Assembly: GCA_018971835.1 (NCBI GenBank) | Contig: JAGWZW010000034.1 | Location: 1-35,427 of the forward strand | DNA length: 35,427 nucleotides | Direction of reading: 5' to 3' | Origin: Alphaproteobacteria bacterium | GTDB taxonomy: Bacteria; Pseudomonadota; Alphaproteobacteria; Micropepsales; Micropepsaceae | In this document: positions 7,129 through 35,427 of the stretch, piece by piece | Layout: each line of letters opens with the position of its first letter | How positions within the stretch are numbered: position 1 is the stretch's first letter | Notes under the pieces: model-generated | Database searches by the model: none | The model's input: only the letters and a program-made list of their open reading frames with translations | What the model was told of the DNA's origin: nothing | Translations under genes and position numbers: made by a program

Positions 7129-7160
7129 AAAATCCCCGGGACGTGACAGCGTCACGCCCC
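7129..7160 (-). terminator. intrinsic terminator after the TPR gene
   Basis: Read on the minus strand, a 10-bp stem (GGGGCGTGAC with GTCACGTCCC, one G-U pair) with a 3-base loop spans 7138-7160 and is followed a few bases later by four T residues (7132-7129). It lies 14 bases beyond the stop of the TPR protein gene and before the macA leader, so it probably ends the 7.2-7.8 kb transcript. Confidence 0.55.
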
Positions 7161-7173
7161 GCGGGCCGGCGGA

Positions 7174-7755: not shown

Positions 7756-7874
7756 GACAATCCTCCCTGGTTTGTCGATATAAAATGCGCCATTTTGGGC
7801 AATCCGTCTATGTTGACGACGCTCACGACGGCGTGAATGCGATCCCGTTTGCGTGATCGGCCTGCGGGGCCGAG

Positions 7875-8324: not shown

Positions 8325-8391
8325 GGACGGGCACTCCTTAGGCACATGCTATCAGCCTCAAGCCTAAGTCACAGGCGTTGATAAAACGTAA

Positions 8392-9687
<1,296 letters not shown>

Positions 9688-9696
9688 GGCGCGGCG

Positions 9697-10785: not shown

Positions 10786-10816
10786 GGAGCTTCCGTGTTG
10801 GATTCCGGCGGCGTTC

Positions 10817-11335: not shown

Positions 11336-11572
11336 CTGCGAATCCCCCTCTGTCATGGACGCAATGATAGCCGAATACGGACAATCCCCTATCACGCAGG
11401 GCAGGTTTTCCCCGGTTTTCCCTTGCCATGCGGGCGGCAACGGGGCGAGCATGGGCCCGTAGCGGGGCGCGTGACGCGGCCCAATCCAGGGGAAAGCGCC
11501 CGCCGCGCCCCGACCCGGGTTCCGGTTTCGGTCCTCTGGCCGCCGGCATCCGCCCGGGTAACGGAGGCGCAT

Positions 11573-14959: not shown

Positions 14960-17149
14960 CTAGTTGTACATGTTCGGGACGGCGGCCCTTTCCCGTGCTG
15001 TTTCTTCCAGCGGCGGGGTAGGGCAGTATTGAAGGGGCACAGGCGCCCCGGAGGCCGTGCGCCGGCGCGCCTCGGCCGGCGTTTCCAGATGTTCTGCAGC
15101 CGCCAAGGCGGCCTTGCGGTCCACAGCGACGGCGCCGACCTCATTGGGCGGCGGCATCGCGCTGGCCGGATAGACCGCCATCTTCTGCGCGGCCGGATCG
15201 ATCTTGCGCCCCAGATCGAGATCGCGCGCATTGGTGCCCTTCGGCGGGATTACGGCCACGCCGTCCACGATCTCGTGATCGAACCACCACTTCTTCACCG
15301 GATTGCGCTTGCCGTTGCCCAGCCAATCGTCGAGGGCGGCGGCGACCGGCACCAGGGCGGGCTTCAGCCACATCGCATGGATGCCCAGCCAACTGGCGAT
15401 GCGGGTCGCCAGCGCGCCGTCGGCATCCACCACCTTGTTGAGCGGACAGGTCTTCATGCAGCGCCCGCAGGCCGCGCCTTTCGCGTTGGTCAGCCGGTAG
15501 CGGGTGCAACGCTCCACATCCGGCTTCCAGATCTCGTAGCCGTTGAACATCACCTTGTCGCGGAAGGGGATGGCATCGCAGGGACATTCGCGCGCGCATT
15601 TGAAGCATTTGCTGCAGAAGGTCTGCAGGCCGAAATCTATCGGCTGGTCGACCGCCAGCGGCAGGTCCGTCGTCAGCACCACCGATTTGAAACGCGGGCC
15701 GACGAACGGATTGAGCACCAGTTCACCGATGCGGCTGAGTTCGCCCAGGCCAGCCCACAGGATCAGCGGGATGTGCAGCACGTCGCTGTCGGCATTGGTC
15801 TGCGCGCGCGCCGGAAAACCCTTGGCGCGCAGGAATTCGCCCATCACTCCGGCAATCTCGGCACCGCGCAGGTAGGCGCGCATAGACTGCCCGCCTGAAA
15901 CCCAGTCATCGCCGCTGGCGCCTTCCATCGTGTCGTAGCCCTGGTCGATCAGCATGACCACGGCGTAGCGGTGATAGGGCGGGATTTCCGTGCCGTTTTC
16001 CTTGTGCGAGAACCAGGCATAGCGCGGAATCTCGCAGATGCCGGTGAGATCGGCGCCGAGAAAATAGGACAGCGACTTGATGGCTTTGGCGTTGGCCGCG
16101 GGATCGCTGGATTCTGGACGCGCCGCCACGCCGCCGTTCTGGTATTTCACCAGCGCGCGGATCAGTTCCAGAAAGGCGAAGGCGAGCGGCGTCTTGAACG
16201 CGAAGCGCGTGCGCTCGCGTTTGGCCTTGTCGCCCAGATCGCCGTGCAACGCGCGCTGGAAGAAGGCCGCGCGCTTGGGCACGCGCGGCACTTCGTCGTC
16301 CAGGATCAGCGTGGTCGGCCGCGCCACGCGCTTCACCGTCTCCATCGGATAGGCGCTGAGATGGCTGGCCCGTCTGGCGCGGCGGTTGCGTTCGCGGCCC
16401 GAGCGCGCGCCGCGCACCCCCCACCAATAGGCGAAGCCGCGGGCCTTGAGCGCATCGGCATGCAGCGGCAGATCGCACGCCAGTTCGTAATCGGTGGAGA
16501 TGGCGGCCAGCGAGAATTGCGCGCCGATATAGGGATGCTCGAGCACCGCTCCGCGGCGCACGGCCAGGCCCGCCAACACCGCCAGGCGTTCGATATCCAG
16601 TTGCGTATCGCCGGCCGTGTGCGCGCGCGCCGCGAAACCGAGCTGGCGAACATAGGCGGCGAGGCAGCAGGCGAGCTCCGTGGCGCGCAATTCGGCGGCG
16701 GCACCGGTAGCGCCGCGCGTCCAGTCATGGGCCAGGTTGTCTGCTTCCGGGCGGCGGGGATGTTCCACCAGGATAACGAGCGCATGGGTATGTTGGCATT
16801 CCGGCGCACCCTCGAGCCACGCGTTGGGCACGATGCGGCAGATGCCGGCGCCGCTGGCATCAAGGAAATAGGCACTGCCTTTCAGATCGGCGGCGCAGCG
16901 CTCGAGATCGTCGGGCAGCGGGGCGCGGGCTGCGGCGGGCGCGCCTTCGGCGAATTGCGCGAAGATGCTCCGATAGTGCGCGCACGCCCGCGCAAGGGGT
17001 TCGTCCAGCGGCGGTTCGACCACAGAACCGGGCGCGCGTCGTGGCCGCTCTGCCTCGGCAGCGATGATGGTGCCGTCGCGCCTGAGGCTTTCCAGCGGAA
17101 ACGGCCCGAGATGGCAGGGGCGGTTTTGCGAGCGCGGATGCCAGAGCAT
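14960..17149 (-). CDS. rdhA: cobalamin-dependent reductive dehalogenase, NpRdhA-like, cytoplasmic
   Basis: This 729-residue protein would remove halogen from organohalides, probably halophenols, using cobalamin and two 4Fe-4S clusters. The cluster motifs are CxxCxxCxxxCP at Cys512-Cys522 and CxxCxxxCP at Cys561-Cys568, the RdhA pattern. Tyr426, Lys488 and Arg552 fall at the positions I recall for the active site of Nitratireductor NpRdhA. There is no Tat signal and no membrane anchor, so it is a soluble catabolic type, and it has no fused flavin reductase, so it needs a separate electron donor. Residues about 88-229 repeat 357-499 (GSAYFLDASGAGICRIVPNAW against SLSYFLGADLTGICEIPRYAW). The first copy lacks the Fe-S cysteines and has Glu153 and Ser213 for Tyr and Lys. 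It follows a LysR gene by 41 bases and trxB before that. A QueG-like or other corrinoid protein is less likely given length and residues. Confidence 0.85.
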   Translation of the reverse strand: MLWHPRSQNRPCHLGPFPLESLRRDGTIIAAEAERPRRAPGSVVEPPLDEPLARACAHYRSIFAQFAEGAPAAARAPLPDDLERCAADLKGSAYFLDASGAGICRIVPNAWLEGAPECQHTHALVILVEHPRRPEADNLAHDWTRGATGAAAELRATELACCLAAYVRQLGFAARAHTAGDTQLDIERLAVLAGLAVRRGAVLEHPYIGAQFSLAAISTDYELACDLPLHADALKARGFAYWWGVRGARSGRERNRRARRASHLSAYPMETVKRVARPTTLILDDEVPRVPKRAAFFQRALHGDLGDKAKRERTRFAFKTPLAFAFLELIRALVKYQNGGVAARPESSDPAANAKAIKSLSYFLGADLTGICEIPRYAWFSHKENGTEIPPYHRYAVVMLIDQGYDTMEGASGDDWVSGGQSMRAYLRGAEIAGVMGEFLRAKGFPARAQTNADSDVLHIPLILWAGLGELSRIGELVLNPFVGPRFKSVVLTTDLPLAVDQPIDFGLQTFCSKCFKCARECPCDAIPFRDKVMFNGYEIWKPDVERCTRYRLTNAKGAACGRCMKTCPLNKVVDADGALATRIASWLGIHAMWLKPALVPVAAALDDWLGNGKRNPVKKWWFDHEIVDGVAVIPPKGTNARDLDLGRKIDPAAQKMAVYPASAMPPPNEVGAVAVDRKAALAAAEHLETPAEARRRTASGAPVPLQYCPTPPLEETARERAAVPNMYN

Positions 17150-17190
17150 GCCGAAGCCTGCCGCTCATCGCCCGGCATGTCCAGCCCGGC

Positions 17191-18084
17191 TTAGTACCGC
17201 CAGTCTTTCGCCTCGCGGACCACGAAATCGCGGAAGGCGCCCACGCGCTTGGACTGGCGCAAGGCGTCCGGATAGACGAGGTGAACGTCGAAAGACGGCC
17301 CCTCGATCTCCGGCAGCACGCGCACCAGGGCCGGGCGCGATTCCATCATGTAGTCGGGCAGCGCGGCGATGCCGACCGAGGACTCCACCGCGTGCAGGAT
17401 GCCGGTGACGTTGTTGATGCGCAGCACGCGGGGCCCGCCGTCATGGCCGAGGCGCCGCGCGGTACCGAGCAGCCAGTTGACGTCGCGGATTTCGGGCGCC
17501 GCCGTTTCGCCATAGACGACCAGGGTATGATTGTGCAGGTCGTTGACGCTGGCCGGCGTGCCGTGCCGGGCGAGATAATCGGTGGAAGCGTAAAGGTGAT
17601 AGTGGACGGTGAAGAGCTTGCGCTGGATCAGGTCAGCTTGCACTGGCGCGCGCATGCGCAGCGCCAGGTCTGCCTCGCGCTGGGCCAGATCCAGCTCGCG
17701 ATCCTCCAGGATCAAATGTACCTGCAACTCGGGATAATCGCGCAGGAAGGCGTCCATCCGCGGCAGCAGCCAGTGCGTGCCCAGGCCGTGGCTGGAGGTG
17801 ATCTTGAGCGAGCCGCGCGGTGCGGCCTGCACGTTTTTGAGCGCCTCTTCGGCCTGGCCCAGGCGGGTCAGCACATCGGACACCGCGCCGTAGAGCAGCT
17901 CGCCTTCATCGGTGAGCGTGAGGCCGCGGGCGTGGCGCTGGAAGAGCGGCGTCGCGATTTCCTCTTCCAGCGCGCTGATCTGGCGGCTGACAGCGGACTG
18001 GCTCAAGGCCAGCATCTGTCCGGCATGGGTGAAACTTCCCGCAGAGGCCACTGCGTGGAAGATGCGAAGTTTGTCCCAATCCAT
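17191..18084 (-). CDS. LysR-family transcriptional regulator
   Basis: The 297-residue protein has an N-terminal winged helix-turn-helix (LRIFHAVASAGSFTHAGQ, then LSQSAVSRQISALEEEIATP, about 6-45) and a C-terminal periplasmic-binding-like effector domain (for example SSVGIAALPDYMM). It is a cytoplasmic DNA-binding regulator whose ligand is not predictable. It starts 18 bases after trxB and ends 41 bases before rdhA on the same strand, so all three may be one transcript. Two readings are possible. It may control the dehalogenase, or it may be an old neighbour of trxB, an arrangement I believe is common in alphaproteobacteria. A divergent target, usual for LysR proteins, is absent, which weakens any confident assignment of its target. 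Confidence 0.88.
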   Translation of the reverse strand: MDWDKLRIFHAVASAGSFTHAGQMLALSQSAVSRQISALEEEIATPLFQRHARGLTLTDEGELLYGAVSDVLTRLGQAEEALKNVQAAPRGSLKITSSHGLGTHWLLPRMDAFLRDYPELQVHLILEDRELDLAQREADLALRMRAPVQADLIQRKLFTVHYHLYASTDYLARHGTPASVNDLHNHTLVVYGETAAPEIRDVNWLLGTARRLGHDGGPRVLRINNVTGILHAVESSVGIAALPDYMMESRPALVRVLPEIEGPSFDVHLVYPDALRQSKRVGAFRDFVVREAKDWRY

Positions 18085-22809: not shown

Positions 22810-24054
22810 TCAGGACACGCCGCGCGGGACGAGGCCCTGTTCGACCCAGCCGTCGAAAATCTTCAGCGCCGTATCGACGAAGGCGTCGTCGTTGATATGG
22901 GCGTCGATCTCGATCAGTTCGGCCGGCGCCTTGATATGTTCGCGTAGCGCCTGGGCAAAAGCCGCCAAGGCCTCGGGATTGTGCATGGCTTCGCCTTCGC
23001 GGTCCCAGGCCTCGATGCCCTGCAGCGGCATCAGGAAGGTGGCGGGGCCGGCGGCGGCCTTGAGCTTCTCGCCGATGGTGCGGGCCAGTTCCTGCCGTTC
23101 CTCCGCCGTGATGCCGATGGAGCAGATCAAGCGATTGTGAGCGTGGTAGTCGCGGTCCTGGTAATGCGCGGGCACGCCGGCCCAGGTGGGGAAGTCGCAC
23201 ATGTCGGTGCCGCCCGGTGCCAGCAACTGGGGAATGCCGCGGCGGCTGGCGCCTTCGAGGCGGTCATGGCCGGCGGTGAGCACGCCGCCCAGGATGGCGT
23301 TGGTGATCTCGCACAGCGCGAAGTCCATCACCGCGGCGAACTCGCCGCGCGCGGCCAGGCTCTCGAAGGCCCGCCCGCCCATGCCGGTGGCATGGAACAC
23401 GGCGACTTCGTAGCCGCGCTGTTCAAGCTCGGGTACCAGCCTGACCATGTATTTGAGGCAGGACTTGCCCAGCGAGGTCACGCCGATGCGCGGCCGGTCG
23501 GCCTTGGGCGGGCGCACGGCGCGGCAGGCGCCCGCGATCGCGCCCGCGGCCTGGCTCAGCACCGATTTGCACAGGCTGTTGAGCCCGTAGAGCCCGCCGG
23601 ACCACAGGATCATCTGCAGGTCCGGCGAGAAGCGCTCGATCTGGATCACCGGCGAGAAGGCGATGGTGGAAACGATGTATTTCGGCACGCCCAGAGGCAG
23701 GGCGTCGGCGACGTCGAGCGCCAGATCGGTGCCCATCGAGCCGCCCAGCGCGATCATGCCGTGGATGCGGCCTTCCTGATATAGCTTGAGGGCGAGTGCG
23801 CTGGCGCCTTCGGCCATCTTGGTCATGGCGAGGTTCTCCTCGCCCAGCGCGATGATGTCCTCGATAGTGGTGTTCGCTGCGGCGGCGACGTCGCGATTGC
23901 TGAAATCGACCGCGAAGGGTGGCGTGCCGAGCACGCCCACATCCATCACCAGACCCTTCACATCCAACTCGGCAATGCACTGAGCCAGAAACTGAAGCTC
24001 GTCCGCCTTGGTGTCGGCCGTGCCGATGATGAGAACGCTGGTCTGCCCGCTCAT
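22810..24054 (-). CDS. UPF0261 / Tm-1-like ATP-binding protein
   Basis: The 414-residue protein belongs to UPF0261, the family of the ATP-binding part of tomato Tm-1, which blocks tobamovirus replication. It has the family N-terminus (LIIGTADTKADELQFLAQCI), a segment GMIALGGSMGTDLALDVADALPLG, and IGVTSLGKSCLKYMV in the second half. The bacterial role is not established; the fold suggests nucleotide-dependent catalysis on a small metabolite. The common fusion or neighbour, a PEP-mutase-like TIM-barrel protein, is missing here. Instead its ATG overlaps the stop of an MFS transporter by four bases (ATGA), and an aminotransferase precedes that. Translational coupling points to work on the transported compound. 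It is the last gene of this unit before a weak terminator. Confidence 0.88.
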   Translation of the reverse strand: MSGQTSVLIIGTADTKADELQFLAQCIAELDVKGLVMDVGVLGTPPFAVDFSNRDVAAAANTTIEDIIALGEENLAMTKMAEGASALALKLYQEGRIHGMIALGGSMGTDLALDVADALPLGVPKYIVSTIAFSPVIQIERFSPDLQMILWSGGLYGLNSLCKSVLSQAAGAIAGACRAVRPPKADRPRIGVTSLGKSCLKYMVRLVPELEQRGYEVAVFHATGMGGRAFESLAARGEFAAVMDFALCEITNAILGGVLTAGHDRLEGASRRGIPQLLAPGGTDMCDFPTWAGVPAHYQDRDYHAHNRLICSIGITAEERQELARTIGEKLKAAAGPATFLMPLQGIEAWDREGEAMHNPEALAAFAQALREHIKAPAELIEIDAHINDDAFVDTALKIFDGWVEQGLVPRGVS

Positions 24055-25241
24055 GCCGCTTGTTCCGTCGCCTGCGGTTTATGGAAAAGGATGGGGAAGA
24101 AGGCGCCGAGCGACACCAGCGCCAGCACCGCGCTGCCGATCACCACATGGCCGTAGCCGTTCGCCGTCAGCAGCATCGCGGCGAAGCCCGGCGCCGCTGC
24201 AAAGCCGATGAACTGCAGCGGAATGGCGAAGCGCAACAGTACGCTCGAGGCCGCGCGCACCGCGATCAGGCCGAGGATCAAGGGAATCCCGGCATTCCAG
24301 GTGAACTGGAAGGCGCAGTTGAGCGCGAGAAAACTGGTATGGCCCATCGGTAATCCGAACGCGAAAATCACCGCTGCCCCGCCGCCCAGAACGACGAGCG
24401 CGGTCGAAAGATAGCCGAGCTTGCGGCAGCTCCACGCCATCGACAGGGCGCCGATCACGCCGAAGATCTGCGAGAACGACAGCGTCGAGTTCACCGCCAC
24501 GTCGTCGAGGCCGAGACCGCGGCCGATCAGCGACATGTAGGTGTAGGCCGCCGGAAAGCCGATGGAAAAGGCCAGGAAGGAAACCAGCGCCGTCAGCCCC
24601 GTGGGCGACAGCAGCGAAACGCCATGCGGCGTTTCTTCTTCGACCATCTCCGCGCCTGTCGTCACGAAGGGCACGAAACCGAGGCAGACAAGCAGCGACA
24701 GATTGTACGCGATCAGAAACGCCGTGTAATGGCCGAGCGAGAATATCCAAGGCAGCAGGAAGAAGCCCAGCATCGGAAAGGCGATGATGGCCGCCACGCC
24801 CCAGCCCATGTTGCGCTCGGGATTGTCGCCCAGGCCCAGCACTGCCCAGGCGATGGTGGTGGTCAGCCCCGCGCCGAAACCGGCGACGGTTCTAGTTACC
24901 AGAAACAAATCGTCCCTGCCCAGCGCCATCGCGCCGATGGTGGCGAGGTTGGCGAGGATGGCGATGACCATGCCGACGGCAAAGGCGATGCGCCAGTTCA
25001 TGCGCCGGGCGAAGAAGGTGAACAGCACCGAGCCGGCCATCAGCCCGAACAGTTCGGCCGCCGCGATATAGCCCGCGAAGCTCTGGCTGAAATGCAGGTA
25101 GTCGACCATGCCCTGCACCATCCCCGGCTGCATGGTGACGGGCGTGCCGGTGACGGCGAGCGGGATGGCGGCCGCGGCCACCATCAGGATTTCGCCGCCC
25201 GTCCCTTTGGGCGGCGCGCCGCCCGGAACCCGCTCGCTCAT
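24051..25241 (-). CDS. MFS transporter in an aminotransferase-UPF0261 operon
   Basis: The 396-residue protein has about twelve membrane helices with MFS features: FFARRMNWRIAFAVG in the loop between helices 2 and 3, and GFGAGLTTTIAWAVLGLGDN in helices 4-5. I chose the ATG at 25241, which gives the short polar N-terminus MSERVPGG; a longer frame starts with TTG at 25292 and has no helix upstream. It ends with ATGA overlap into the UPF0261 gene and starts 67 bases after the aminotransferase stop. It may import the substrate of this operon or export a product. The substrate is not predictable from the sequence. Confidence 0.87.
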   Translation of the reverse strand: MSERVPGGAPPKGTGGEILMVAAAAIPLAVTGTPVTMQPGMVQGMVDYLHFSQSFAGYIAAAELFGLMAGSVLFTFFARRMNWRIAFAVGMVIAILANLATIGAMALGRDDLFLVTRTVAGFGAGLTTTIAWAVLGLGDNPERNMGWGVAAIIAFPMLGFFLLPWIFSLGHYTAFLIAYNLSLLVCLGFVPFVTTGAEMVEEETPHGVSLLSPTGLTALVSFLAFSIGFPAAYTYMSLIGRGLGLDDVAVNSTLSFSQIFGVIGALSMAWSCRKLGYLSTALVVLGGGAAVIFAFGLPMGHTSFLALNCAFQFTWNAGIPLILGLIAVRAASSVLLRFAIPLQFIGFAAAPGFAAMLLTANGYGHVVIGSAVLALVSLGAFFPILFHKPQATEQAA

Positions 25242-25308
25242 CGTCTCATCCCTGTGCTTGATGTTATGCCGCCACAGTCTTTTCGTTTGCAACGAAAGTC
25301 AATCCGCG

Positions 25309-26658
25309 TCAGGCGGCCTGAAGGCCCGCGGCCACGGCTTCTGAAATTTGTGTAATGTGCTCGGGGCCGACGATCAGGGGTGGGGAGATGATGATGTTGT
25401 TGCCGGAGACGCGCACGATCACGCCGGCCTCGTAGATGCCGTCGAACACCTTGTTGATGACCGGCTTGGCGATCGGCGTCTTTTTGGCGCGGTCGCTGAC
25501 CAGTTCCAGACAGACCATCAGCCCGCGCCCGCGCACATCGCCCACGATCTCGAACTTGTCCTTGAGGGCGTCGAGTGCGGCGAGCAGTTCGGCGCCGCGG
25601 GCAGCGGCATTCCCGGCCACGTTCAGACGCTGCATTTCGCCGAGTGCCGCGATAGCCGCAGCCGCGCCCACCGGGTGGGCGGAATAGGTGTAGCCCGAGC
25701 CGATGCTGCCGAGCGCGGATTTGTTGTTCTCGAACGTCTCGCGCACGGCGTCGCTGATCATCACCGCGCCGAAGGGGAAATAGCCGTTGGTCAGGCCCTT
25801 GGCGGTGGTGGCGAGGTCGGGCTGGACGCCGTAGAGCCGCGCGCCGGTCCAGGCGCCGGCGCGCCCGAAGCCGGTGATCACCTCGTCGGAAATCAGCAGT
25901 ACGCCGTGCCTGCTGCAGATCTCGCGCACCATCGGCATGAAGCTGTCATGTGGCGGGATCACGCCGCCGGCGCCCAGCACCGGCTCCATGATGAAGGCGG
26001 CCACCGTATCCGGCCCCTGGAAGACGATCTCGTCCTCGAGCAGGTTGGCGCAGAGCTGTGCCACCTTGGCCGGATCGGATTCATTGAAGGGATTGCGATA
26101 GGGCCAGGGGCAGGGGATGTGGAAGCAGCCCGGCAGCAGCGGCTCATAGGCCCGGCGGAAATTGACGTTGCCGTTGACCGAGGCGCCACCGAAATGCGTG
26201 CCGTGATAGGCCTTCTTGAGCGAGATGAATTTCACGCGATCGGCTTCGCCGCGCAGCTTGTGGTACTGGCGGGCGAGGCGCAGCGCCACTTCTACCGAAT
26301 CCGAGCCGCCCGAGGTGAAGAAGGCACGCGTCAGCCCTTCCGGCGCGAAGAACTCGCGCAGCGCATAGGAAAGCTCGATCGCCGGCGCGTTGGTGGTGCC
26401 GCGGAACGAATTGAAGAACGGCATGATGTCGAGCTGGTCGCGGATCGCCGCTTTCACCGGCTCGCAGGAATGGCCGAGATTGACGCACCACAGCCCGCCC
26501 ACGCCATCGAGCACGCGGCGGCCATCGACATCCTCGACATGCACGCCGTCCGCCTTGGTGATGATGGTCGGCGGGCTCTTCTGCATCTCCGCCGGATGGG
26601 CCATTGGGTGCCAGAAATGCCGCGCGTTGTTCTCGATCAGGAAGTTTTTGTCTCGCAT
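25309..26658 (-). CDS. class III PLP aminotransferase (omega-amino acid/amine type)
   Basis: The 449-residue enzyme is a fold-type I class III aminotransferase. It has SGGSDSVEVALRLARQYH (phosphate-binding region), Asp258 in LISDEVITGFGR, which pairs with the PLP ring, and the Schiff-base Lys287 in TTAKGLTNGYFPFGAV. N-terminal HFWHPMAHPAEM and the later TYSAHPVGAAAA are typical of beta-alanine, putrescine or other omega-amine:pyruvate transaminases. I chose the ATG at 26658 (GGAG seven bases upstream); an in-frame extension would run into the IclR gene. It is 34 bases after the IclR gene and 67 before the MFS gene, so it is in one unit. The divergent aldehyde dehydrogenase could oxidise the aldehyde it makes. 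The exact donor is uncertain. Confidence 0.9.
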   Translation of the reverse strand: MRDKNFLIENNARHFWHPMAHPAEMQKSPPTIITKADGVHVEDVDGRRVLDGVGGLWCVNLGHSCEPVKAAIRDQLDIMPFFNSFRGTTNAPAIELSYALREFFAPEGLTRAFFTSGGSDSVEVALRLARQYHKLRGEADRVKFISLKKAYHGTHFGGASVNGNVNFRRAYEPLLPGCFHIPCPWPYRNPFNESDPAKVAQLCANLLEDEIVFQGPDTVAAFIMEPVLGAGGVIPPHDSFMPMVREICSRHGVLLISDEVITGFGRAGAWTGARLYGVQPDLATTAKGLTNGYFPFGAVMISDAVRETFENNKSALGSIGSGYTYSAHPVGAAAAIAALGEMQRLNVAGNAAARGAELLAALDALKDKFEIVGDVRGRGLMVCLELVSDRAKKTPIAKPVINKVFDGIYEAGVIVRVSGNNIIISPPLIVGPEHITQISEAVAAGLQAA

Positions 26659-26692
26659 GGAGTTCTCCGCCACAGACGTAGGTCTGGTTGAT

Positions 26693-27502
26693 TCAGATAA
26701 CGGCGTGTTCCGTTCGGTTGCCGCGTACGCGGGCTCCCCGGTTCGCGTCTGTCCCGCCCGGTGCGCCGCCAAGGGCGCGCGTGATCGCGGCCGCCCCCTC
26801 GCGCACGGCATCGCGCATCACGGCTTCCGCGAGCTGGCGCCGGCGCGAAATGGGCGCGGCCACCGCCACCGCGCCGCAGACCACATCGCCGGAATTGAAC
26901 ACCGGCGCGGCCACCGAGAAGACGCCTTCCTCGTAACCATCCGTGGAGGCGGCAATGCCGCTCTTCCGGCAGGTTTCGAGCAGCGCGCGAATGCGCTCCG
27001 GGTCGCTGAGCGTTGCCGGTGTGAAGGCGGCAAGCGGCTGGTTCAGCGCCGCCTCCACCACCTTGGCCGGCGCAAAGGCGAGATAGGCAAGACCGGACGA
27101 GGTGGCGTGCAGCGGCAAGGCTTCGCCGATCTCCACGATCACACGATTGACTTTCGGGCTTTCGACGACAGCGAGTGTCGCCAGTTCTTCGCCGCAGAGC
27201 ATGGAGAAATGCGCTGTCTCTTCGGTGATCTTCACCAGGTGCGCGAGCACCGGCGCAACGGCCGCTTCGACGGGATGTGTCTGTTCGCGCACCCGGGCGA
27301 GCCGCACAAGGCTGGGGCCGAGCCGGTAGGTCCGCCTCTGTGCATCCTGTTCGAGAAAGCCGCGGCGCAGGAGGGCTGAGAGATAGCGGTGCGTCGTTGC
27401 CTTGTCGTAGCGGGCCAGCCGCGCCAGTTCCGACAAACCGATTGCCGGGCGCTGTTCGGAGAACAGGGCGAGAAGCCCCAATGCCTTTTCGATGGTGCGC
27501 AT
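26693..27502 (-). CDS. IclR-family transcriptional regulator
   Basis: This protein has an N-terminal winged helix (IEKALGLLALFSEQRPAIGL, then ELARLARYDKATTHRYLSAL) and the C-terminal effector-binding domain (VIVEIGEALPLHATSSGLAYL; STDGYEEGVFSVAAPVFN) of IclR proteins. With the ATG at 27502 it has 269 residues, normal for the family. A start at ATG 27556 or TTG 27562 would add 18-20 residues but would overlap a near-perfect palindrome at 27549-27569, which is better read as its operator. It is divergent from an aldehyde dehydrogenase gene and leads the aminotransferase-MFS-UPF0261 unit, so it probably controls both directions. The ligand would be a pathway substrate or intermediate. Confidence 0.9.
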   Translation of the reverse strand: MRTIEKALGLLALFSEQRPAIGLSELARLARYDKATTHRYLSALLRRGFLEQDAQRRTYRLGPSLVRLARVREQTHPVEAAVAPVLAHLVKITEETAHFSMLCGEELATLAVVESPKVNRVIVEIGEALPLHATSSGLAYLAFAPAKVVEAALNQPLAAFTPATLSDPERIRALLETCRKSGIAASTDGYEEGVFSVAAPVFNSGDVVCGAVAVAAPISRRRQLAEAVMRDAVREGAAAITRALGGAPGGTDANRGARVRGNRTEHAVI

Positions 27503-27548
27503 GCCTGCCTGCTTCGCCGCCCTGAGTGTTGGCAGCTTGACACGAGAT

Positions 27549-27590
27549 AATTTCATTTGCAATGATATTTAAACTCTTGGATCGTATAAT
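27549..27590 (+). promoter_or_regulatory. IclR-aldDH divergent promoter and operator
   Basis: A 21-base inverted repeat pairs AATTTCATT (27549-27557) with AATGATATT (27561-27569), eight of nine positions matching, with centre TGC. A perfect TATAAT at 27585-27590 would be the -10 box of the aldehyde dehydrogenase gene, placing transcription start about 9 bases before its ATG. No good -35 box is at 17 bases (the sequence is ATGATA, part of the palindrome), which suits regulation by a bound IclR protein. Confidence 0.5.
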
Positions 27591-27605
27591 AAACCGGGTG
27601 GCGGC

Positions 27606-29093
27606 ATGGGCATGCAGGACGAGATCAACGCGTTGCGGGCCACGCCGGTTGCGCCGCGCCAGCTTTTCATCAACGGCAAATGGGTCGAGCCCGCAGAGGG
27701 CAAGCGCCATCGGGTGATCAGCCCGCTGGACGGGACGGAACTCACCACCATCGCCGAAGCCGGGCCGGCCGACATCGATGCGGCCGTCGCCGCCGCGCGC
27801 GCGGCCTTTGACCGCGGCGTCTGGTCGCGTGCCGCGCCAGCCGAGCGCAAGCGTGTGCTGCTCAAGCTGGCGGGCCTGATCGAACAGCATGCGCTGGAAC
27901 TGGCCGTGCTCGGCACGCGCGACAACGGCACGGAAATCTCGATGTCCTTGCGTGCCGAGCCGGGCAGCGCGGCGGGCACCTTCCGCTATTACGCCGAAGC
28001 CATCGACAAGGTGTATGGCGAGATCGCGCCCACGCCGGACAACGTGCTCGGGCTGATCCATCGCGAGCCTGCTGGCGTGGTGGGCATCATCGTGCCGTGG
28101 AATTTCCCGCTGATGATCGGCTCGTGGAAGCTGGCGCCGGCGCTGGCGGCGGGCAATTCGGTGGTGGTGAAGCCGCCGGAACCGGCCTCGCTCAGCCTGT
28201 TGCGCCTGACCGAACTCGCCGCCGAAGCGGGCCTTCCCGAAGGCGTGCTCAACGTCACCACCGGGCGCGGCAGCGTGGCCGGCGAGGCGATCGCGCGCCA
28301 CATGGATATCGACGTGCTGGCCTTCACCGGCTCCGGCCCGGTGGGGCGGCGATTGCTGGAAGCCTCCGCGCAATCCAACCTGAAGCGCGTCTATCTGGAG
28401 CTGGGCGGCAAGTCACCGAATATCGTCTTTGCCGATGCGCCGGACCTCGACAAGGCCGCCAAGGCGGCGGTCAACGGCGTGTTCCGCAATTGCGGGCAGG
28501 TCTGCATCGCCGGCACGCGGCTGCTGGTGCAGAACACCGTCGCCGAAGAGTTCACCGCCCGCGTGGTGGCGGCCACGCGCGCGCTCAAGCTGGGCGATCC
28601 GCTCGACATGGCTACCGAGGTCGGCGCGGTGTCGAGCGCCACGCAGCTTTCACAGAATCTCGGCTTTGTGGAGGGCGCGCTACGCGAGGGCGCCGAATGC
28701 CTCACCGGCGGCGAGCGCCTGCGCGAAGAAACCGGCGGCTTCTACATGGCACCGGCTGTGTTCGGCGGGGTGACGGAAGCGATGACGCTGTTCCGCGAGG
28801 AAGTGTTCGGCCCGGTGCTGGCCGTCACGACTTTCGAGGATGAAGCCGAAGCTGCGCGGCTGGCCAATGCCACCAGCTTCGGCCTGGCCGCAGGGGTGTG
28901 GACCGGCAACCTTTCCACCGCGCACAGGATGGTGCGCGCGGTGGGTTCAGGCCTTGTGCATGTGAACTGCTATGGCGGCTCGGACATCACCGTGCCCCTG
29001 GGCGGCGTGAAGCAATCCGGCTTCGGCAAGGACAAATCGCTGCACGCCTTCGACAAGTTCACCAATCTCAAATCCGCCTGGATCCAGCTTTAG
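27606..29093 (+). CDS. NAD(P)-dependent aldehyde dehydrogenase
   Basis: The 495-residue enzyme belongs to the ALDH superfamily. It has VPWNFPLM with Asn166, [11 protein letters not shown] (240-250) in the cofactor site, general base Glu265 in LELGGKSPN, catalytic Cys300 in NCGQVC, and C-terminal EEVFGPVL. It resembles the PuuC/betaine-aldehyde-type group that oxidises amine-derived aldehydes. It is divergent from the IclR gene and convergent with wrbA, overlapping its stop by four bases. With the class III aminotransferase it would complete an amine to acid pathway. An alternative is an aryl-aldehyde such as the vanilloyl acetaldehyde formed in lignin dimer catabolism, since a beta-etherase cluster lies 5 kb away. 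Neither is shown by the sequence. Confidence 0.92.
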
Positions 29094-29722: not shown

Positions 29723-30421
29723 TCAGGCGGCGTCCACCAGGACGATTTCAGAATCGTCCAGCGCGGCGACGGTGAGGGTTTCGACGTCGGTGATGGCCGC
29801 GCCGTCACGGGCGTTCACGCGCACGCCGTTCACCTCGACCGCGCCAGTGGCCGGCGCCAGATAGAGATGGCGGCCCGGAGCGGCCGTGTAGCTGGCGCGG
29901 CTGCCGGCCTTCAGCGTCGCGCCCAGGACGCGGGCATCGGCGCGGATGGGCAGGGCATCGTCGTCGCCCTCAATGCCGCTGGCCAGCGTGACGAAGCGGC
30001 CGGCGCGCGCGTCCCTGGGGAAGGGCTTGGTGCCCCAGCCCGGTTGCCCGCCCGTGCGCGTGGGCAGGATCCAGATCTGGAACAGCGTGGTCGTTTCCTG
30101 CTCCAGATTGTGTTCGGAATGGCGGATGCCGGTGCCGGCGCTCATCACCTGCACGTCGCCGGCTTCGGTGCGGCCTTCGTTGCCCAGGCTGTCGCGATGG
30201 GTGATGGCGCCCTGCCGCACATAGGTGATGATCTCCATGTTGGCGTGCGGGTGGGGCGCAAAGCCGGTGCCGGAGGCGATCTCGTCGTCGTTCCAGACGC
30301 GCAGCGCGCCCCAGTGCATCCGCTCGGGATCGTGATAATCGGCGAAGGAAAAGTGATGCTTGGTCTTGAGCCAGCCGTGGTCCGCGCCGCCGAGCTTGTC
30401 GAAAGTCCTTACTTCGATCAT
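29723..30421 (-). CDS. pirin-family protein (bicupin, possible quercetinase)
   Basis: The 232-residue protein is a two-domain cupin. The N-terminal metal site is complete: His57 and His59 in FAPHPHANME, and His101 and Glu103 in GIRHSEHN, matching the ligands of human pirin almost by number. The second cupin (YTAAPGRHLYLAPATGAVEV) has no metal ligands, as is usual. Bacterial pirins such as YhhW cleave flavonols like quercetin with O2 in vitro, although other roles are known. AAGGAGAGAGGG precedes the ATG. It lies first in a pirin-wrbA operon divergent from a LysR gene, an arrangement I associate with quinone or electrophile response. Confidence 0.92.
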   Translation of the reverse strand: MIEVRTFDKLGGADHGWLKTKHHFSFADYHDPERMHWGALRVWNDDEIASGTGFAPHPHANMEIITYVRQGAITHRDSLGNEGRTEAGDVQVMSAGTGIRHSEHNLEQETTTLFQIWILPTRTGGQPGWGTKPFPRDARAGRFVTLASGIEGDDDALPIRADARVLGATLKAGSRASYTAAPGRHLYLAPATGAVEVNGVRVNARDGAAITDVETLTVAALDDSEIVLVDAA

Positions 30422-30501
30422 GGCCCTCTCTCCTTGGCGCCTGCTGTGAGCGCCGGTTCTGTTGGCCCCAGAGATATGGACAAATCGCTCGGTTAGAAAT
30501 A

Positions 30502-30530
30502 GAAACTATTGAAACACATTGTTTCCAATA
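30502..30530 (+). promoter_or_regulatory. candidate LysR operator between pirin and lysR
   Basis: GAAAC occurs at 30502-30506 and 30511-30515, and its complement GTTTC at 30521-30525, giving an inverted repeat with a 5-base centre extended by TATT and CAATA on the outside. It lies 6 bases before the lysR ATG at 30536 and about 80-110 bases before the pirin ATG, where a LysR protein would both repress itself and activate the pirin-wrbA operon. Confidence 0.5.
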
Positions 30531-30535
30531 TTGAG

Positions 30536-31438
30536 ATGTCGAAACTTCCCGACCTCGAGGGGCTTGCCATCTTCGCCAAGGTGGCGGAGCGGCGCTCCTT
30601 CGCCGGCGCCGCCGACGAGCTGGCGCTGTCCAAAGCCACCGTATCCAAGGCGGTGGCGCGGCTGGAAGCGAAGCTGGGGGCGCGGCTGTTCAACCGCACC
30701 TCGCGCCGACTGGCGCTCACCGAGACGGGCCGCGGCCTGGCTGCGCGCGCGGCGGCGATGCTGGCCGAAGGCGAAGCCGCGGAGAGTGAGGTGCAGTTCC
30801 AGTCCGCGGCGCCGCGCGGGCGGTTGCGGCTGACGGCGCCGATGTCTTTCGGCGTGCTGTATGTCGCGCCGCTGCTTCCGGAGTTCCTGCAGCGTTATCC
30901 CGAGATATCGATCGACCTGCAGCTTTCCGATGCGCAGGCCGACGTTGTGGGGGAGGGCTACGATGCGGCGCTGCGCATCGCGGCGCTGCCGGATTCTTCG
31001 CTGGTGGCGCGCAAGCTGTGCGACATGCCGCTCCATCTGGTGGCGGCGCCGTCTTATCTGAAAAAGCATGGCCGGCCGAAGCATCCGCTCGAACTCGCCG
31101 AGCGGCCCTGCGTGACCTATGCCTATCAGCCGAACAGCGAGACCTGGCGCTTCCGCAAGCGTTCCGGCGAGGTGGTCTCCGTGCGGCCGGCCGGGCCGCT
31201 CTGCGTCAACAACGGCGATGCCATGCTGCCGGCGCTGATTGCTGGGATGGGTTTCGCCGTGCTGCCGGAATTCCTGCTGCGGACGGCGCTGGCCAAAGGT
31301 AGGCTCGAGATCGTGTTGCCCGAATGGCAGCTGCCGGCAGGCGCGGTTTATTGGCTGACGCCGCCGGGCGGCCCGCGGCCGCGTCGCGTCGCTGTGCTGG
31401 CCGATTTCCTGGCCGAGCGTCTCGGCCGCCGCGCCTGA
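30536..31438 (+). CDS. LysR-family regulator of the pirin-wrbA operon
   Basis: The 300-residue protein has a winged helix-turn-helix ([20 protein letters not shown], then [20 protein letters not shown]) and an effector domain of the CrgA/YhaJ-like type ([40 protein letters not shown]). YhaJ-like members respond to quinones and aromatic electrophiles. I chose the ATG at 30536, where the domain starts normally; a TTG at 30509 would place the operator inside the gene. The ribosome site is weak (GAG only). It is divergent from pirin-wrbA, its probable target, and convergent with the GMC gene 12 bases away. Confidence 0.9.
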
Positions 31439-31450
31439 TCCGGTTTGGCG

Positions 31451-33082
31451 TCAGTTTCGCGCCAGCGGCGGCTTGCCCAGAATGATGTCGGAGGCTTTCT
31501 CCGCGATCATGATCGTCGGGCCGTTGGTATTGCCGCCCGGCACGGTCGGCATCACGGAGGCATCGACCACACGCAATCCCATAACGCCGTACACCCGCAA
31601 CTGCGGATCGACCACGCTCATGCTGCCGATGCCCATCGCGCAGGTTCCCACTGGATGCTGGGTGACTTCCGCGTAACGGCGGACATGCTCGTCCAGTTCC
31701 GCGTCGGTGGTGAGATTTTCGCCCGGAAGGATTTCGCGGCCCGTCAGCTCGCCCTGAGGCGGGGTGCGATAGATGCGCCGCGCCACGGCAATGCCGCGGC
31801 GCGCGGTGGCGAAATCGGCGGCTTCGGAGAACAGGTTCAGTTTGATTGCGGGCGGATCGGCCGGGTTCGGCGTCTTCAGCGTTACGCTGCCGCGGCTCTG
31901 CGGATGCAGCAGGATGACATCGGCGGTGATCTGGTCTTCCTGGCGCGGCTTGATGCCGGGAAACCACATCTCGGCGTCCATGCGCACCGGATTGCACCAG
32001 AGCTGGATATCCGGCTGCGCAAGGTCCGGGTGGCTGCGCACCACGATATTGGCGCTGTTGACCTGCGTGGCGAAAGCGCCGGTGCCGGTCAATGCCCATT
32101 GCAGCACCCAGCGCGCGGCGCGATCGAAGCGCAGCTCGTTGAGGAAACTGACCGGCTTCTTCAGCGTGAAACGGACCGGAACGCGCGGATGTTCGGAGAG
32201 GTTTCGGCCGACGCCGGGAAGATCGTGGACGATTTCGATGCCCAGTGCCTTGAGCGCCGTGGCCGGGCCGATGCCCGACAGCATCAGAAGCTGCGGCGAA
32301 TTGTAGGCGCCGCCCGAGAGAATGATCTCGCGCGCCGCGGTGGCGATCTCGCTGGCGCCGGCGCGCGCATAGACCACGCCGCGGGCGCGCTTGCCTTCGA
32401 AGGCGAGACGCTGCACCGAGGCGCCGGTCACGACCGTCAGATTCGGGCGCCTGAGTGCCGGTTCGAGATAAGCGCGTGCCGTGCTGGCGCGGCGGCCGCT
32501 TTTGTCGATGTTCAATTCGCCGCGGGCGAAGCCTTCCTCCGCCCCGGTGTGGATATCATCGATGCAATGGAAGCCGGCAGCTTCCGCGCTGTTCATGAGC
32601 GGCTGATGAAGCAGCCGCTTGGTGTCCACCGGGACGACCGGCAGCCTGCCGTCGCCGCCGTGATCGGGGCCGGCCCCGCGCCAGCTTGACTCCATGCGCT
32701 TGAAATAGGGCAGCACGTCGGCATAGCCCCAGCCTTCGCAACCCATCTGGCGCCAGGTTTCGAAATCGAGGCTGTGGCCGCGCATGAAGAACATGCCGTT
32801 GATCGACGACGAGCCGCCCAGCACCCGCCCACGGGGCAGAAAAATCGTCCGGCTGTGGAGATGGGGCTCGGCTTCGGATTTGTAGCCCCAGGTATAGCGC
32901 GGCTGGCGCAAGGCGCGCAGGAAGCCGAGCGGCATCGTCAGCAGGAAACGGCGATGATCGCCACCGGCTTCCAGCAGCAGTACGCGATTGCCGGGTTCGG
33001 CAGAAAGCCGGTCGGCCAGCACGCAGCCGGCCGATCCGGCGCCGACGATTACATAATCATATTCGCTGGTTGTCGCTGTCAC
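31451..33082 (-). CDS. GMC-family FAD alcohol oxidoreductase, possible HpvZ-like
   Basis: The 543-residue flavoenzyme has the FAD motif VGAGSAG at 13-19, the GMC signature [18 protein letters not shown], the second signature [18 protein letters not shown], catalytic His476 in [11 protein letters not shown], and the partner Asn in [13 protein letters not shown]. Choline dehydrogenase-like enzymes oxidise primary alcohols. I chose the GTG at 33082; a GTG at 33127 would add 15 residues. It lies 95 bases after the LigD-type gene on the same strand. In Sphingobium SYK-6 a GMC enzyme, HpvZ, oxidises the gamma-alcohol of beta-hydroxypropiovanillone after ether cleavage, so the context fits a similar step. 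Choline or polyethylene glycol oxidation cannot be excluded. Confidence 0.9.
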
Positions 33083-33177
33083 GGCGCGATGACGTCCCCC
33101 GGTTTGCTCTGCCGCCCAATGTATCACCGAACCGCGTTACACCTTTCGGATGACGCGTTCAGGCGCTGCGGGTCGCG

Positions 33178-34089
33178 TCAACCCTCGCGCCCGCGCGAGA
33201 AGATGCTGCCGCGATCCTTGGCCCAGTTCATCAGCGCCTCGGTGCGCTCCTTGGCGCCTTCCGGGTCGGATTCGATCGGCGGAATGCTGTCGACGATCTC
33301 GCGGAAGTGTTGAGCCAGCCGCTCCTTCTCTTCAGGGTAAGGAATGATGTAGAGCTTTCCGGCTTCCATCGCCTGCTTGGTGCGTTCGGCCAGCACCACC
33401 GGATCCATGCCGTGACTGTAGATGCTGTGTAGCGAGGCGATGGCCTCCTCGCTCTCGTTATAGCCGGTGTTGGCCAGATGGGCCGGGCGGGTCTTGACCG
33501 CTTCGGCGATGTTGCTACGGATGTTGGCCGGGCAGAGCACCGAAACCTCGATGCCGTATTTGGCCAGGCCAGCGCGATAGCTTTCCATCAGGCTGATGAC
33601 GGCGGCCTTCGCGGCCGAGTAGATGGAGGCGACCGCGCTGCCCTGGAAGCCGCCCACCGACGCGGTGGAGACGACATAGCCGCCCTTGCCGGCCTTGATC
33701 ATGCGCGGCACGAAGGTCTGCATGCCGTTCGCCACGCCCCAGAAATTGACGCCCATCAGCCAGTCGTAATCGTCATAGGTGGAATTTTCCACCGGCCCGA
33801 AGCTGTTGACGCCGGCGGTGTTGAAGAGTAGCTGCGGCGGCTCGCCGAACACCTTTTCCACTTCGTCGGCCGCGCACGCATAGGCGGCGCGGTCGGTGAT
33901 GTCCAGGCGGATGGCATGGGCCGGCGCATTCTGCGCGCGGAAATAGGCCAGTGCCTCGTCGAGCGGTTCCTGACGAATGTCGGCGATCACGATCTTGCAG
34001 CCGGCCTGGGAGAACACCTTGGCCTGGCCGAAGCCTGCGCCCGACGCGCCGCCCGTGATGAAGGCAACCTTTCCTGCGAAATCTTTCAT
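33178..34089 (-). CDS. ligD: LigD-type Calpha-dehydrogenase (SDR), beta-aryl ether pathway
   Basis: The 303-residue short-chain dehydrogenase has the NAD-binding TGGASGAGFG (12-21), NTAG (90-93), and the Ser-Tyr157-x3-Lys161 site (YSAAK). Its start, MKDFAGKVAFITGGASGAGF, and its FNTAGVNSFGP, CPANIRSNIAEA, IASLHSIYSHG, IIPYPEEKERL and DPEGAKERTEALMNW segments closely match LigD/LigL/LigN of Sphingobium SYK-6 as I remember them. These oxidise the Calpha alcohol of guaiacylglycerol-beta-guaiacyl ether to the ketone with NAD+. Which stereoisomer this one prefers is not readable. AAGGAGA precedes the ATG. It follows the LigE-type gene by 17 bases, so they are one transcript. Confidence 0.88.
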   Translation of the reverse strand: MKDFAGKVAFITGGASGAGFGQAKVFSQAGCKIVIADIRQEPLDEALAYFRAQNAPAHAIRLDITDRAAYACAADEVEKVFGEPPQLLFNTAGVNSFGPVENSTYDDYDWLMGVNFWGVANGMQTFVPRMIKAGKGGYVVSTASVGGFQGSAVASIYSAAKAAVISLMESYRAGLAKYGIEVSVLCPANIRSNIAEAVKTRPAHLANTGYNESEEAIASLHSIYSHGMDPVVLAERTKQAMEAGKLYIIPYPEEKERLAQHFREIVDSIPPIESDPEGAKERTEALMNWAKDRGSIFSRGREG

Positions 34090-34106
34090 GGCTCAATTTC
34101 TCCTTG

Positions 34107-34859
34107 CTATTGTGCGGCTGCGGCTTGCGCTTCGGATTTGGGCAGGCCGAACAGGGTGTGCAGAGCAGGGTGGCGGCCCAGCCCGCCGAACAGATCGAAG
34201 CCGCGGTCGATATAGTCCTTCAGCGGATCATCGTCGTGGAGCGGCGGAATCGTCGCCACCGACGCCGTCCACAAGAACACCGCCAGCGCGCGATAATCGG
34301 CATAGTTGGGATGCTCGCCGCCCAGCCATCTAGTGTCCTTGAGCAGTTCGCGGAAGGGTTCGAGGTCCGGCGGCACCATCGGCAGGCGCTCCTCGCGCCC
34401 GGCCTGCACCTCTTCCAGCTTGCGCCCGCCGAGGAACAGCTGCTCACGGCTTTCGCGCACATAGGCGTGATCCTGCGGCAGCGACAGGTTATGATAATCG
34501 AGGATGTAGCACCGGAACCAGGGCCGGATCGCCGTGCGCCACAGCCAGCCGTCGATGAACTTGGTCAGCACCTTCATGCTGTCGCCGTCGATCAACTTCG
34601 GCCGGTTGGGATATTTCTCGTCAAGATATTCGGCGATCAACCAGCTGTCCTTCACCCAGTGCCCATCATCGACGATCACCGGCAGGCGGTCGGAGAAGCC
34701 GTTGGTGCGCTCCATGATGCCGGTGAAACCGCCGGGCACGATGTCGATATCGAAGCCTTTGTGCCGGAGCGCATACTTCGTCGCCCAGACGAACGGGCTG
34801 ATGGTGCAGCCGCTCGCCAGTTGCAGATCGAACAGCGTGATGGTGTTGTTTCTGGCCAA
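34107..34859 (-). CDS. ligE: LigE-type beta-etherase (glutathione S-transferase family)
   Basis: The 250-residue protein has a thioredoxin-like N-terminal domain and a helical C-terminal domain. From LARNNTITLFDLQLASGCTI on, it closely follows LigE/LigP of Sphingobium SYK-6 as I recall it: KGFDIDIVPGGFTGIMERT, RLPVIVDDGHWVKDSW, PWFRCYILDYHNLSLPQD, and RGFDLFGGLGRHP. Ser21 in the glutathione-contact loop is kept. LigE cleaves the beta-O-4 ether of the Calpha ketone with glutathione. It starts with TTG at 34859, with AGGGAGAG seven bases before; no ATG fits, and the open frame upstream has no homology. The C-terminus is about 30 residues shorter than the LigE I recall. It is the first gene of a ligE-ligD-GMC unit. 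Confidence 0.87.
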   Translation of the reverse strand: MARNNTITLFDLQLASGCTISPFVWATKYALRHKGFDIDIVPGGFTGIMERTNGFSDRLPVIVDDGHWVKDSWLIAEYLDEKYPNRPKLIDGDSMKVLTKFIDGWLWRTAIRPWFRCYILDYHNLSLPQDHAYVRESREQLFLGGRKLEEVQAGREERLPMVPPDLEPFRELLKDTRWLGGEHPNYADYRALAVFLWTASVATIPPLHDDDPLKDYIDRGFDLFGGLGRHPALHTLFGLPKSEAQAAAAQ

Positions 34860-34979
34860 GTTCGGCTCTCCCTGTGTTGCGTCCGCGAACGGCCGCGCTT
34901 TGAGCGCATAGATGCACGCCGTGTCCGCGCGATCAACATGGCATTGGCCTTTGTTGGCGGCAGTTCGCTCTCCGTCGGC

Positions 34980-35015
34980 GTTTGGCTTCCCAAACAGTTG
35001 CATTTGATTTCGCAA
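34980..35015. promoter_or_regulatory. inverted repeats in the lig-MFS divergent region
   Basis: The 294-base region between the LigE-type gene and the MFS gene (34860-35153) holds no gene. It contains GTTTGG (34980-34985) paired with CCAAAC (34990-34995) around a 4-base loop, and next to it TTGC (34998-35001) facing GCAA (35012-35015). Either could be an operator for a regulator of both directions. No regulator gene lies next to this region in the window, and -35/-10 boxes are not clear. Confidence 0.35.
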
Positions 35016-35153
35016 TCTCGCCAGTCGCATTGGGAGGCTGCACATGAATTCGCCGGAACGCGTTTCGGCAGGCTACCTTTGCTGGCAGTCTGTGCTTACA
35101 GTGCCGGCAAGGCGGCCGCGCCAGGCGGACCGAACCGGGGAGGAATGCGAGGG

Positions 35154-35427
35154 ATGGAGATGCGGACGCCTGACCGCGAGAGTGAGGCGATTCACGACAT
35201 CGCGCTGGTCGAAGCCAATGCGCCGGTGCCCGATCCTCCGGCGCAGCCGGGCGCGTCTTATCCGCCCGCTACCCAGGCCTGGTATGCCGTGTTCGCGCTG
35301 GCGCTGGCGGTGATGGTGAATTTCCTCGACCGCGGAATCTTCACGCTGCTGGTGCGGCCGATCAAAGCCGATCTGCACCTGAGCGACGTGCAGATGAGCC
35401 TGATCATGGGTTTCGCCTTCACCTTCT
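35154..35427 (+). CDS. MFS transporter, N-terminal part (cut by window end)
   Basis: The first 91 residues are visible. A roughly 40-residue polar start rich in Pro and Glu is followed by a membrane helix (WYAVFALALAVMVNFLDRGI) and a loop PIKADLHLSDVQMSLIMGF that leads into helix 2, as in MFS proteins of the spinster/anion-cation symporter type, where FLDR(G) ends helix 1. The GGAGG at 35139-35143 fits the ATG at 35154; ATGs at 35145 and 35160 are in frame. It is divergent from ligE-ligD-GMC and may import the aryl ether or an aromatic acid. The remainder lies outside the window. Confidence 0.8.
   Translation, partial: MEMRTPDRESEAIHDIALVEANAPVPDPPAQPGASYPPATQAWYAVFALALAVMVNFLDRGIFTLLVRPIKADLHLSDVQMSLIMGFAFTF

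Follow-up and report, generated by a model that had tools for sequence, protein, structure and literature searches.

The right end of a 35,427-nucleotide stretch of alphaproteobacterial DNA (JAGWZW010000034.1; hereafter the window, the entire contig C20 of a 3.67-Mb genome in 162 contigs) carries a minus-strand run of three genes encoding a LigE-type glutathione S-transferase (GST), a LigD-type short-chain dehydrogenase/reductase (SDR) and a GMC-family oxidoreductase. We consider it likely that this run is a real gene set, with a PhcD-type GMC enzyme, for dimers linked by the β-O-4 (β-aryl ether) bond, the most frequent bond of lignin, and that it makes up half of a larger divergent locus. A sequence-only reading of the window had proposed a β-O-4 aryl ether catabolic cluster here, a proposal favored by the positions of the GST and the SDR, which fell inside and not outside the LigE and LigD clades. 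Its coordinates, gene order, single strand and 17-base gap between the first two genes were reproduced, as was its divergent major facilitator superfamily (MFS) transporter gene beside the cluster, which starts at 35154 or 35160 on the plus strand and runs off the end of C20. The features are as follows.

34107..34859, minus strand: predicted LigE-type glutathione-dependent β-etherase (GST), TTG start, 250 amino acids, assigned by tree, PDB match and residues
33178..34089, minus strand: predicted LigD-type Cα-dehydrogenase (SDR), 303 amino acids, assigned by tree, PDB match and residues
31451..33127, minus strand: GMC-family flavin oxidoreductase, PhcD-type, GTG start, 558 amino acids, with Pfam GMC_oxred_N and GMC_oxred_C
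35154..35427, plus strand: MFS transporter, N-terminal part, divergent from ligE and ended by the contig end

Between the GST stop codon and the ATG of the SDR gene lie 17 bases, and between the end of the SDR gene and the GTG of the GMC gene 50, so the run looks like one operon that would be transcribed as a unit. The open reading frame (ORF) originally listed for the GST was 312 amino acids long; it was treated as an over-extension because similarity to LigE starts only from the TTG codon.

Identity of the LigE-type and LigD-type enzymes

The reference for Sphingobium SYK-6 was locus L025 (NC_015976.1), one of 15 named loci. Against the structure of SYK-6 LigE (PDB 4yam) the window GST matched over residues 1-243 without gaps (E=1.4e-129, 434 bits). 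It was 74% identical to SYK-6 LigE and 63-64% identical to a second SYK-6 homolog (at 3,523,525) that was taken as LigP. Proven LigE homologs share over 59% mutual identity (PMC6369299), and the window GST, at 74% to LigE and 63% to LigP, lies inside this range. In a 25-row tree, the 22 LigE/LigP rows were split from three outgroup GSTs (approximately 40% identical) at 100/100, and the window LigE grouped with the LigE of two same-genus genomes (97/93). Of the glutathione-site and substrate-site residues given in the available part of PMC4777856, which describes the active-site serine 21, the glutathione site and the aromatic pocket of LigE, 10 of 12 were identical in the window GST. The two exceptions, Y23F and V59L, are shared with SYK-6 LigP and with other LigE rows, and F115 and W197 match LigE at positions where LigP differs. 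These comparisons confirmed the GST as a predicted β-etherase of the LigE type, with a resemblance far beyond chance. LigE-like GSTs 38-42% identical to that of the window were also seen in three genomes of another genus of the family (L039-L041; G004, G006 and G005), and homologs on Agrobacterium plasmids were about equally distant (38%).

The SDR had its best PDB match in the LigD structure (4y98), over residues 1-301 of 303 (E=1.6e-122, 411 bits), and was 63% identical to SYK-6 LigD. In a 43-row tree it was sister, at 100/100, to 10 LigD rows (9 distinct), and the LigO-type rows lay outside; SYK-6 LigL, LigN and LigO were identified by comparing their genome positions with locus tags given in PMC12997858, and LigL also by published residue numbers. 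The TGxxxGx(G/A) motif and the N-S-Y-K tetrad, which the available text of PMC4858972 gives as features of Cα-dehydrogenases, were both kept. At the position of LigL Arg222, linked to stereoisomer recognition in the same portion of that source, the window SDR has His, as do all 10 LigD rows. The SDR was thereby confirmed as LigD-type, a predicted Cα-dehydrogenase whose resemblance to LigD is likewise far beyond chance.

Among the 96 genomes of the order, 4, counting the one that holds the window, carry an SDR reaching E<=1e-70 to that of the window. In a search at E<=1e-105 of 385 genomes drawn evenly from the class, a set whose four listed same-genus genomes included none of the three known to carry LigD, the sole match to the window LigD was the window's own; SYK-6 LigD matches it at 3.5e-123, within this limit. 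By a Nei-Gojobori type count, nonsynonymous change (dN) was well below synonymous change (dS) in all three genes of the run: dN 0.096 and dS 0.66 for ligE (against same-genus L079), dN 0.268 and dS 0.60 for ligD (against L093), and dN 0.327 and dS 0.81 for the GMC gene (against SYK-6).

The GST and SDR families are huge and serve many roles, and 205 NCBIfam SDR models match the window SDR. That the two proteins are generic detoxifying enzymes rather than lignin enzymes is nevertheless very improbable, given nearly full-length identities of 74% and 63% to enzymes of proven function, the clade support, the conserved residues and several further parts of the same pathway in the genome.

Identity of the GMC oxidoreductase

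The window GMC matched six SYK-6 proteins in all. Identity was 64% to the product of the gene at 1,010,587, 45% to that at 1,008,560 and 38-39% to that at 1,398,139 (HpvZ). These genes were named by genome position, phcD by its nearness to the SLG_09440 dioxygenase and not from a labelled record. The published tags are phcC SLG_09480, phcD SLG_09500, hpvZ SLG_12830, lsdB SLG_09440 and lsdD SLG_12860 (PMC12997858), and by the available part of PMC8191317 no more than about 5 kb separates phcCD from the SLG_09440 dioxygenase gene. Indeed, carotenoid-oxygenase-like genes were found where expected near both SYK-6 GMC places. Because the closest SYK-6 gene sits at the phcD position, and two trees agree in pairing it with the window GMC (100/99), the latter was classed as PhcD-type.

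The sequence-only reading had rightly placed a GMC gene third in the run, but its assignment to the family of HpvZ did not survive. An HpvZ ortholog is ruled out for the window GMC, which is 38% identical to HpvZ and falls outside the HpvZ group; the HpvZ ortholog of this genome is a GMC on contig C110 (64% identity, grouped at 100/100).

The window GMC could still act as an oxidase of β-hydroxypropiovanillone (HPV) like HpvZ or HpvY, in which case the operon would cover dimer oxidation, cleavage and the first monomer oxidation, much as the sequence-only reading had it but through an enzyme other than HpvZ. This possibility overlaps with the preferred β-O-4 gene set, to which it adds a definite GMC substrate, and we hold it to be a serious one that falls somewhat short of an even chance. 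The position of the GMC gene in the operon favors it, and in same-genus loci L078 and L079 an HpvZ ortholog lies about 1.5 kb from ligE. According to the available part of PMC11837543, HpvY of Novosphingobium aromaticivorans oxidises HPV while being 39% identical to HpvZ, so the activity extends beyond the HpvZ clade, and the window GMC is 45% identical to HpvY (SARO_RS19130 on pNL2). However, the window GMC lay outside both the HpvZ and the HpvY groups, and close relatives of both are already present in the genome: the C110 enzyme for HpvZ, and for HpvY a GMC on contig C60 (59.5%), with which HpvY pairs.

Comparison with known loci

Besides the window, 18 distinct LigE loci were compared (L001, L020-L034, L078 and L079). 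A LigD-type gene was present in six (L021, L025-L028 and L033), always with ligF between ligD and ligE, and in L031 and L032 ligE was followed by a LigN-type SDR gene. GMC genes occurred in four (L029, L030, L078 and L079), each HpvZ-type. None of the 18 loci had ligE directly before ligD, and none had a PhcD-type GMC; absence from L020, L022 and L031 carries little weight because those loci are short.

Like the ligDFEG cluster of SYK-6 (Sphingobium/Parasphingobium), the window encodes LigD- and LigE-type enzymes together on one strand. It differs in having ligE before ligD without ligF between them and a PhcD-type GMC third. The ligDFEG arrangement, with ligF between ligD and ligE and ligG after ligE, is not that of the window; in this genome LigF-type genes lie on contigs C1 and C110, and ligG was not detected. 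The earlier claim that the order ligE-ligD-GMC departs from ligDFEG therefore stands, and the order was equally unmatched among the other 18 loci, some of them short. With SYK-6 phcC/phcD (SLG_09480, SLG_09500) the window shares the GMC gene, 64% identical to the phcD-position gene, but here it sits in a ligE-ligD run, and nothing in the window matched the SYK-6 ORFs at the phcF/phcG position.

The same-genus ligE loci (L078 in G067, L079 in G065) encode LigE proteins 84-85% identical to that of the window and have two MFS genes of the same kinds within about 6 kb. They differ in that an HpvZ ortholog lies downstream of ligE (the genes concerned are at about 5-16.5 kb of these loci), followed by the two MFS genes, and in that ligD is grouped with a LigN-type gene and ligF at another place, away from ligE. 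The gene after ligE in these loci we take to be LigM/DesA-like, and an upstream gene presumably encodes a LigB-like dioxygenase.

A probable second half on contig C1

Contig C1 (8494 bp) starts within an MFS gene, followed by genes for a LigF-type GST, an SDR and a second MFS protein. Eight MFS matches were found in the genome. Six lie inside their contigs, and just two, C20:35223-35423 and C1:1-855, reach a contig end. The two end parts are complementary, covering residues 13-78 (C20) and 165-457 (C1) on the scale of the L078 protein. Because these are the only two contig-end MFS matches and their parts complement each other, C20 and C1 are, as judged from sequence, very likely neighbouring contigs.

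Both parts were closest, themselves aside, to the same gene of Sphingomonas canadensis (L021, 18879-20249) among 35 loci compared, a gene that lies about 8 kb from the L021 ligE. The C1 part was 57% identical to it over 289 amino acids (322 bits, next best 226) and the window part 76% identical over 51 amino acids. Judged from this gene, about 255 bp of MFS coding sequence are missing between C20 and C1. The window fragment was also 61-62% identical to an MFS protein encoded near ligE in L078, and the second MFS protein of C1 shared 58-59% identity with its counterpart, the second MFS protein encoded near ligE in L078 and L079. At the site equivalent to LigL Arg222, the C1 SDR carries Arg and the window LigD the His of LigD proteins.

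If the join is true, LigE faces LigF across an MFS gene and the Arg222-bearing C1 SDR complements LigD. The joined order, GMC-ligD-ligE facing MFS-ligF-SDR-MFS2, would then probably be a single locus, with enzymes that could handle each of the four stereoisomers.

Weighing of the β-O-4 assignment

Several observations weigh against the assignment or against the join. The window GST scored 434.9 bits with the NCBIfam β-etherase model NF042997, under the cut-off of 440, which is an automatic naming threshold and not a biochemical definition. Its match ended at model position 244 of 273, the missing part being the C-terminal tail, and the LigE structure was itself solved from a construct cut at residue 255, as stated in the available part of PMC4777856. 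Scores with the same model were 498.3 for SYK-6 LigE, 509.2 for LigP, 445.1 for the same-genus LigE of L078 (similar in length to the window GST and above the cut-off by 5 bits), 386.2 for L031 (under it) and 195.5 for a 39% identical outgroup GST (L040).

The window LigD outlies the 10 LigD rows, which form their own group (100/99). In three same-genus genomes, LigD shares 76-77% identity with SYK-6 LigD and 67-69% with the window LigD, so that the substrate of the latter, at 63% to SYK-6 LigD, could have shifted. As for the join, the lead of the L021 gene for the window MFS part was small (84.0 bits, with 79.7 and 78.6 for same-genus genes), the C1 SDR grouped only weakly with LigL (88/79 in the 43-row tree), and no overlap of 12-399 bases was found between the ends of C20 and C1, with C1 taken in both orientations, leaving the gap unspanned.

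A further such point concerns the GMC, as the substrate of SYK-6 PhcD is a β-5 dimer and not a β-O-4 compound in the part of PMC8191317 available. The run might instead be an operon for β-5 dimers (phenylcoumaran, dehydrodiconiferyl alcohol type), in which the PhcD-type GMC would lead and LigE would open the phenylcoumaran ether. Closeness of the window GMC to the phcD-position gene fits this idea, as does an Agrobacterium LigE-type GST that, according to the available portion of PMC11497285, acts on a β-5 dimer in a reaction other than the usual one of LigE. We nonetheless regard a β-5 operon as unlikely. The window LigE belongs to the canonical LigE group, far from the outgroup of about 40% identity, and is 38% identical to the Agrobacterium plasmid homologs, which need not include the assayed enzyme. 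LigD has no step in accounts of the β-5 pathway, as far as the available parts of these go, and a gene like that at the phcF/phcG position, with none found in the window, lies on contig C70 beside a PhcC-like GMC.

The C70 row (L083, G000:C70:1001-18000; 5344-9054) consists of genes for the PhcC-like GMC (51%), a small protein and an aldehyde dehydrogenase in line on one strand. The small protein is 40% identical to the SYK-6 ORF at about the phcF/phcG position. It is possible that this row is a β-5 dimer operon.

Further pathway parts in the genome

The sequence-only reading had raised a streamlined pathway lacking ligF, and had asked for ligF and ligG to be sought elsewhere in the genome. 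A pathway without LigF is ruled out by LigF-type GSTs on C110 (48-49% identical to LigF) and C1 (48-50%), which an own-genome search recovered along with a BaeA/BaeB-like pair and a Nu-class-like GST. LigG was not found, a search with SYK-6 LigG giving three weak matches (best 30.6 bits).

The tandem GST pair on C110 (L081, 4209-5769), 43% and 30% identical to LigF, lies about 12 kb from the group containing the HpvZ ortholog and the LigF-type GST. Its first gene grouped with genes of L001 and L029 at 100/100, and each of these directly precedes a second, more distant GST gene. An adjoining arrangement has been reported for baeA and baeB (PMC6369299), and the pair was called BaeA/BaeB-like because its tandem arrangement matches, and not by comparison with a labelled reference. 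Long branches in its second gene and in the C1 GST drew a warning from the tree builder.

In the C110 cluster (L016, G000:C110:28000-46000; 9102-13359), a second dimer cluster of this genome, genes for the HpvZ ortholog, an SDR and the LigF-type GST share a strand and are opposed by the Nu-class-like GST gene; a lignostilbene-dioxygenase-like gene (747.5 bits, cut-off 800) lies at 16294-17757. The Nu-class-like GST, so named from PDB and NCBIfam matches (YfcG, YghU; the N. aromaticivorans structure 5uun was lower at 137.5 bits), was 52-57% identical to the GST whose gene adjoins ligF in six loci of sphingomonads (L001, L023, L024, L029, L030 and L034), which may be compared with GST3 of PMC4609964. 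Its gene and the LigF-type gene stand tail to tail on C110 but head to head in those six loci. The GST3-6 cluster of Novosphingobium sp. MBES04/PP1Y (PMC4609964) likewise pairs LigF-type and Nu-class-like GSTs on opposite strands; that cluster also includes LigE and has the two GST genes head to head, whereas in this genome they are tail to tail and LigE is with LigD on C20.

On contig C80 (L017, G000:C80:20000-38000; 8324-11785) a GMC gene is followed on the same strand by two tandem Cα-dehydrogenase-like SDR genes, and the genome searches gave no LigE- or LigF-type match on this contig. By eye we noted two more genes, presumably for a TonB receptor next to the run and for a sigma-54-type regulator at a greater distance. 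Perhaps this run is a pathway for another dimer.

Neighbouring genes and regulatory sequences

Two further features adjoin the run.

34860..35153, unstranded: intergenic region between divergent ligE and the MFS gene, presumed by position alone to hold both promoters
30509..31438, plus strand: LysR-type regulator (Pfam HTH_1 and LysR_substrate), convergent with the GMC gene

The LysR-type gene ends 12 bases from the GMC stop codon, and control of the GMC-ligD-ligE run by its product is possible but unproven. A scan of 30400-35427 gave two promoter-like sites (0.7 expected, standard deviation 0.9), with no sigma-70-like site listed between ligE and the MFS gene, and four terminator-like sites (4.5 expected). 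An imperfect palindrome of 18 bp lies at 35052-35069 in the ligE/MFS intergenic region; inverted repeats of 30400-35427, this one among them, come without a chance estimate. Further into the window, at 22810-29093, genes for a class III aminotransferase, an MFS protein, a UPF0261 protein, an IclR regulator and an aldehyde dehydrogenase adjoin one another, and are perhaps a separate catabolic cluster.

Proposed function and significance

From homology alone, the following steps may be proposed for the β-O-4 gene set. The MFS protein would import the dimer, and LigD, with nicotinamide adenine dinucleotide, would turn the Cα hydroxyl of the α(R) forms into a ketone. LigE would then swap the β(R) aryl ether for glutathione with release of guaiacol. 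With quinone as electron acceptor, the PhcD-type GMC may next convert a γ-hydroxymethyl group to an aldehyde, acting either on the released C3 monomer or on the dimer. The α(S) and β(S) forms would be handled by the facing half, which is probably on C1 and has the remainder of the MFS gene, the LigF-type GST, the LigL-like SDR and the second MFS protein. Since LigG was not found, glutathione removal would be assigned to the Nu-class-like GST of C110.

It can tentatively be suggested, with the balance leaning against it, that the compact divergent locus pairs stereo-complementary enzymes for the four β-O-4 stereoisomers and has recruited a PhcD-type GMC, a kind known from the β-5 pathway, as a γ-alcohol oxidase. 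The pathway would then have been put together here separately, with another oxidation step, of monomer or dimer, at its centre.

The kinds of enzyme are known, and the arrangement appears to be new among the loci compared. No description of a ligE-ligD-PhcD-type GMC combination was found in the searches made, which covered open-licence papers. To our knowledge, characterised β-O-4 dimer pathways come from sphingomonads, and the source genome seems to belong to an alphaproteobacterial order outside Sphingomonadales, judging from the small size of its order, 96 genomes of a single family in the set used. LigE-like sequences have already been noted in other alpha- and deltaproteobacteria (PMC4609964), and PMC12377529 and PMC10269927 may also report LigE from further groups. 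The presence of LigE, LigD, LigF-type, BaeA/BaeB-like and Nu-class-like GSTs and an HpvZ ortholog in re-sorted operons likely widens the range of the whole pathway, and the divergent LigD and the PhcD-type GMC in a predicted β-O-4 operon are concrete enzyme candidates for lignin use.

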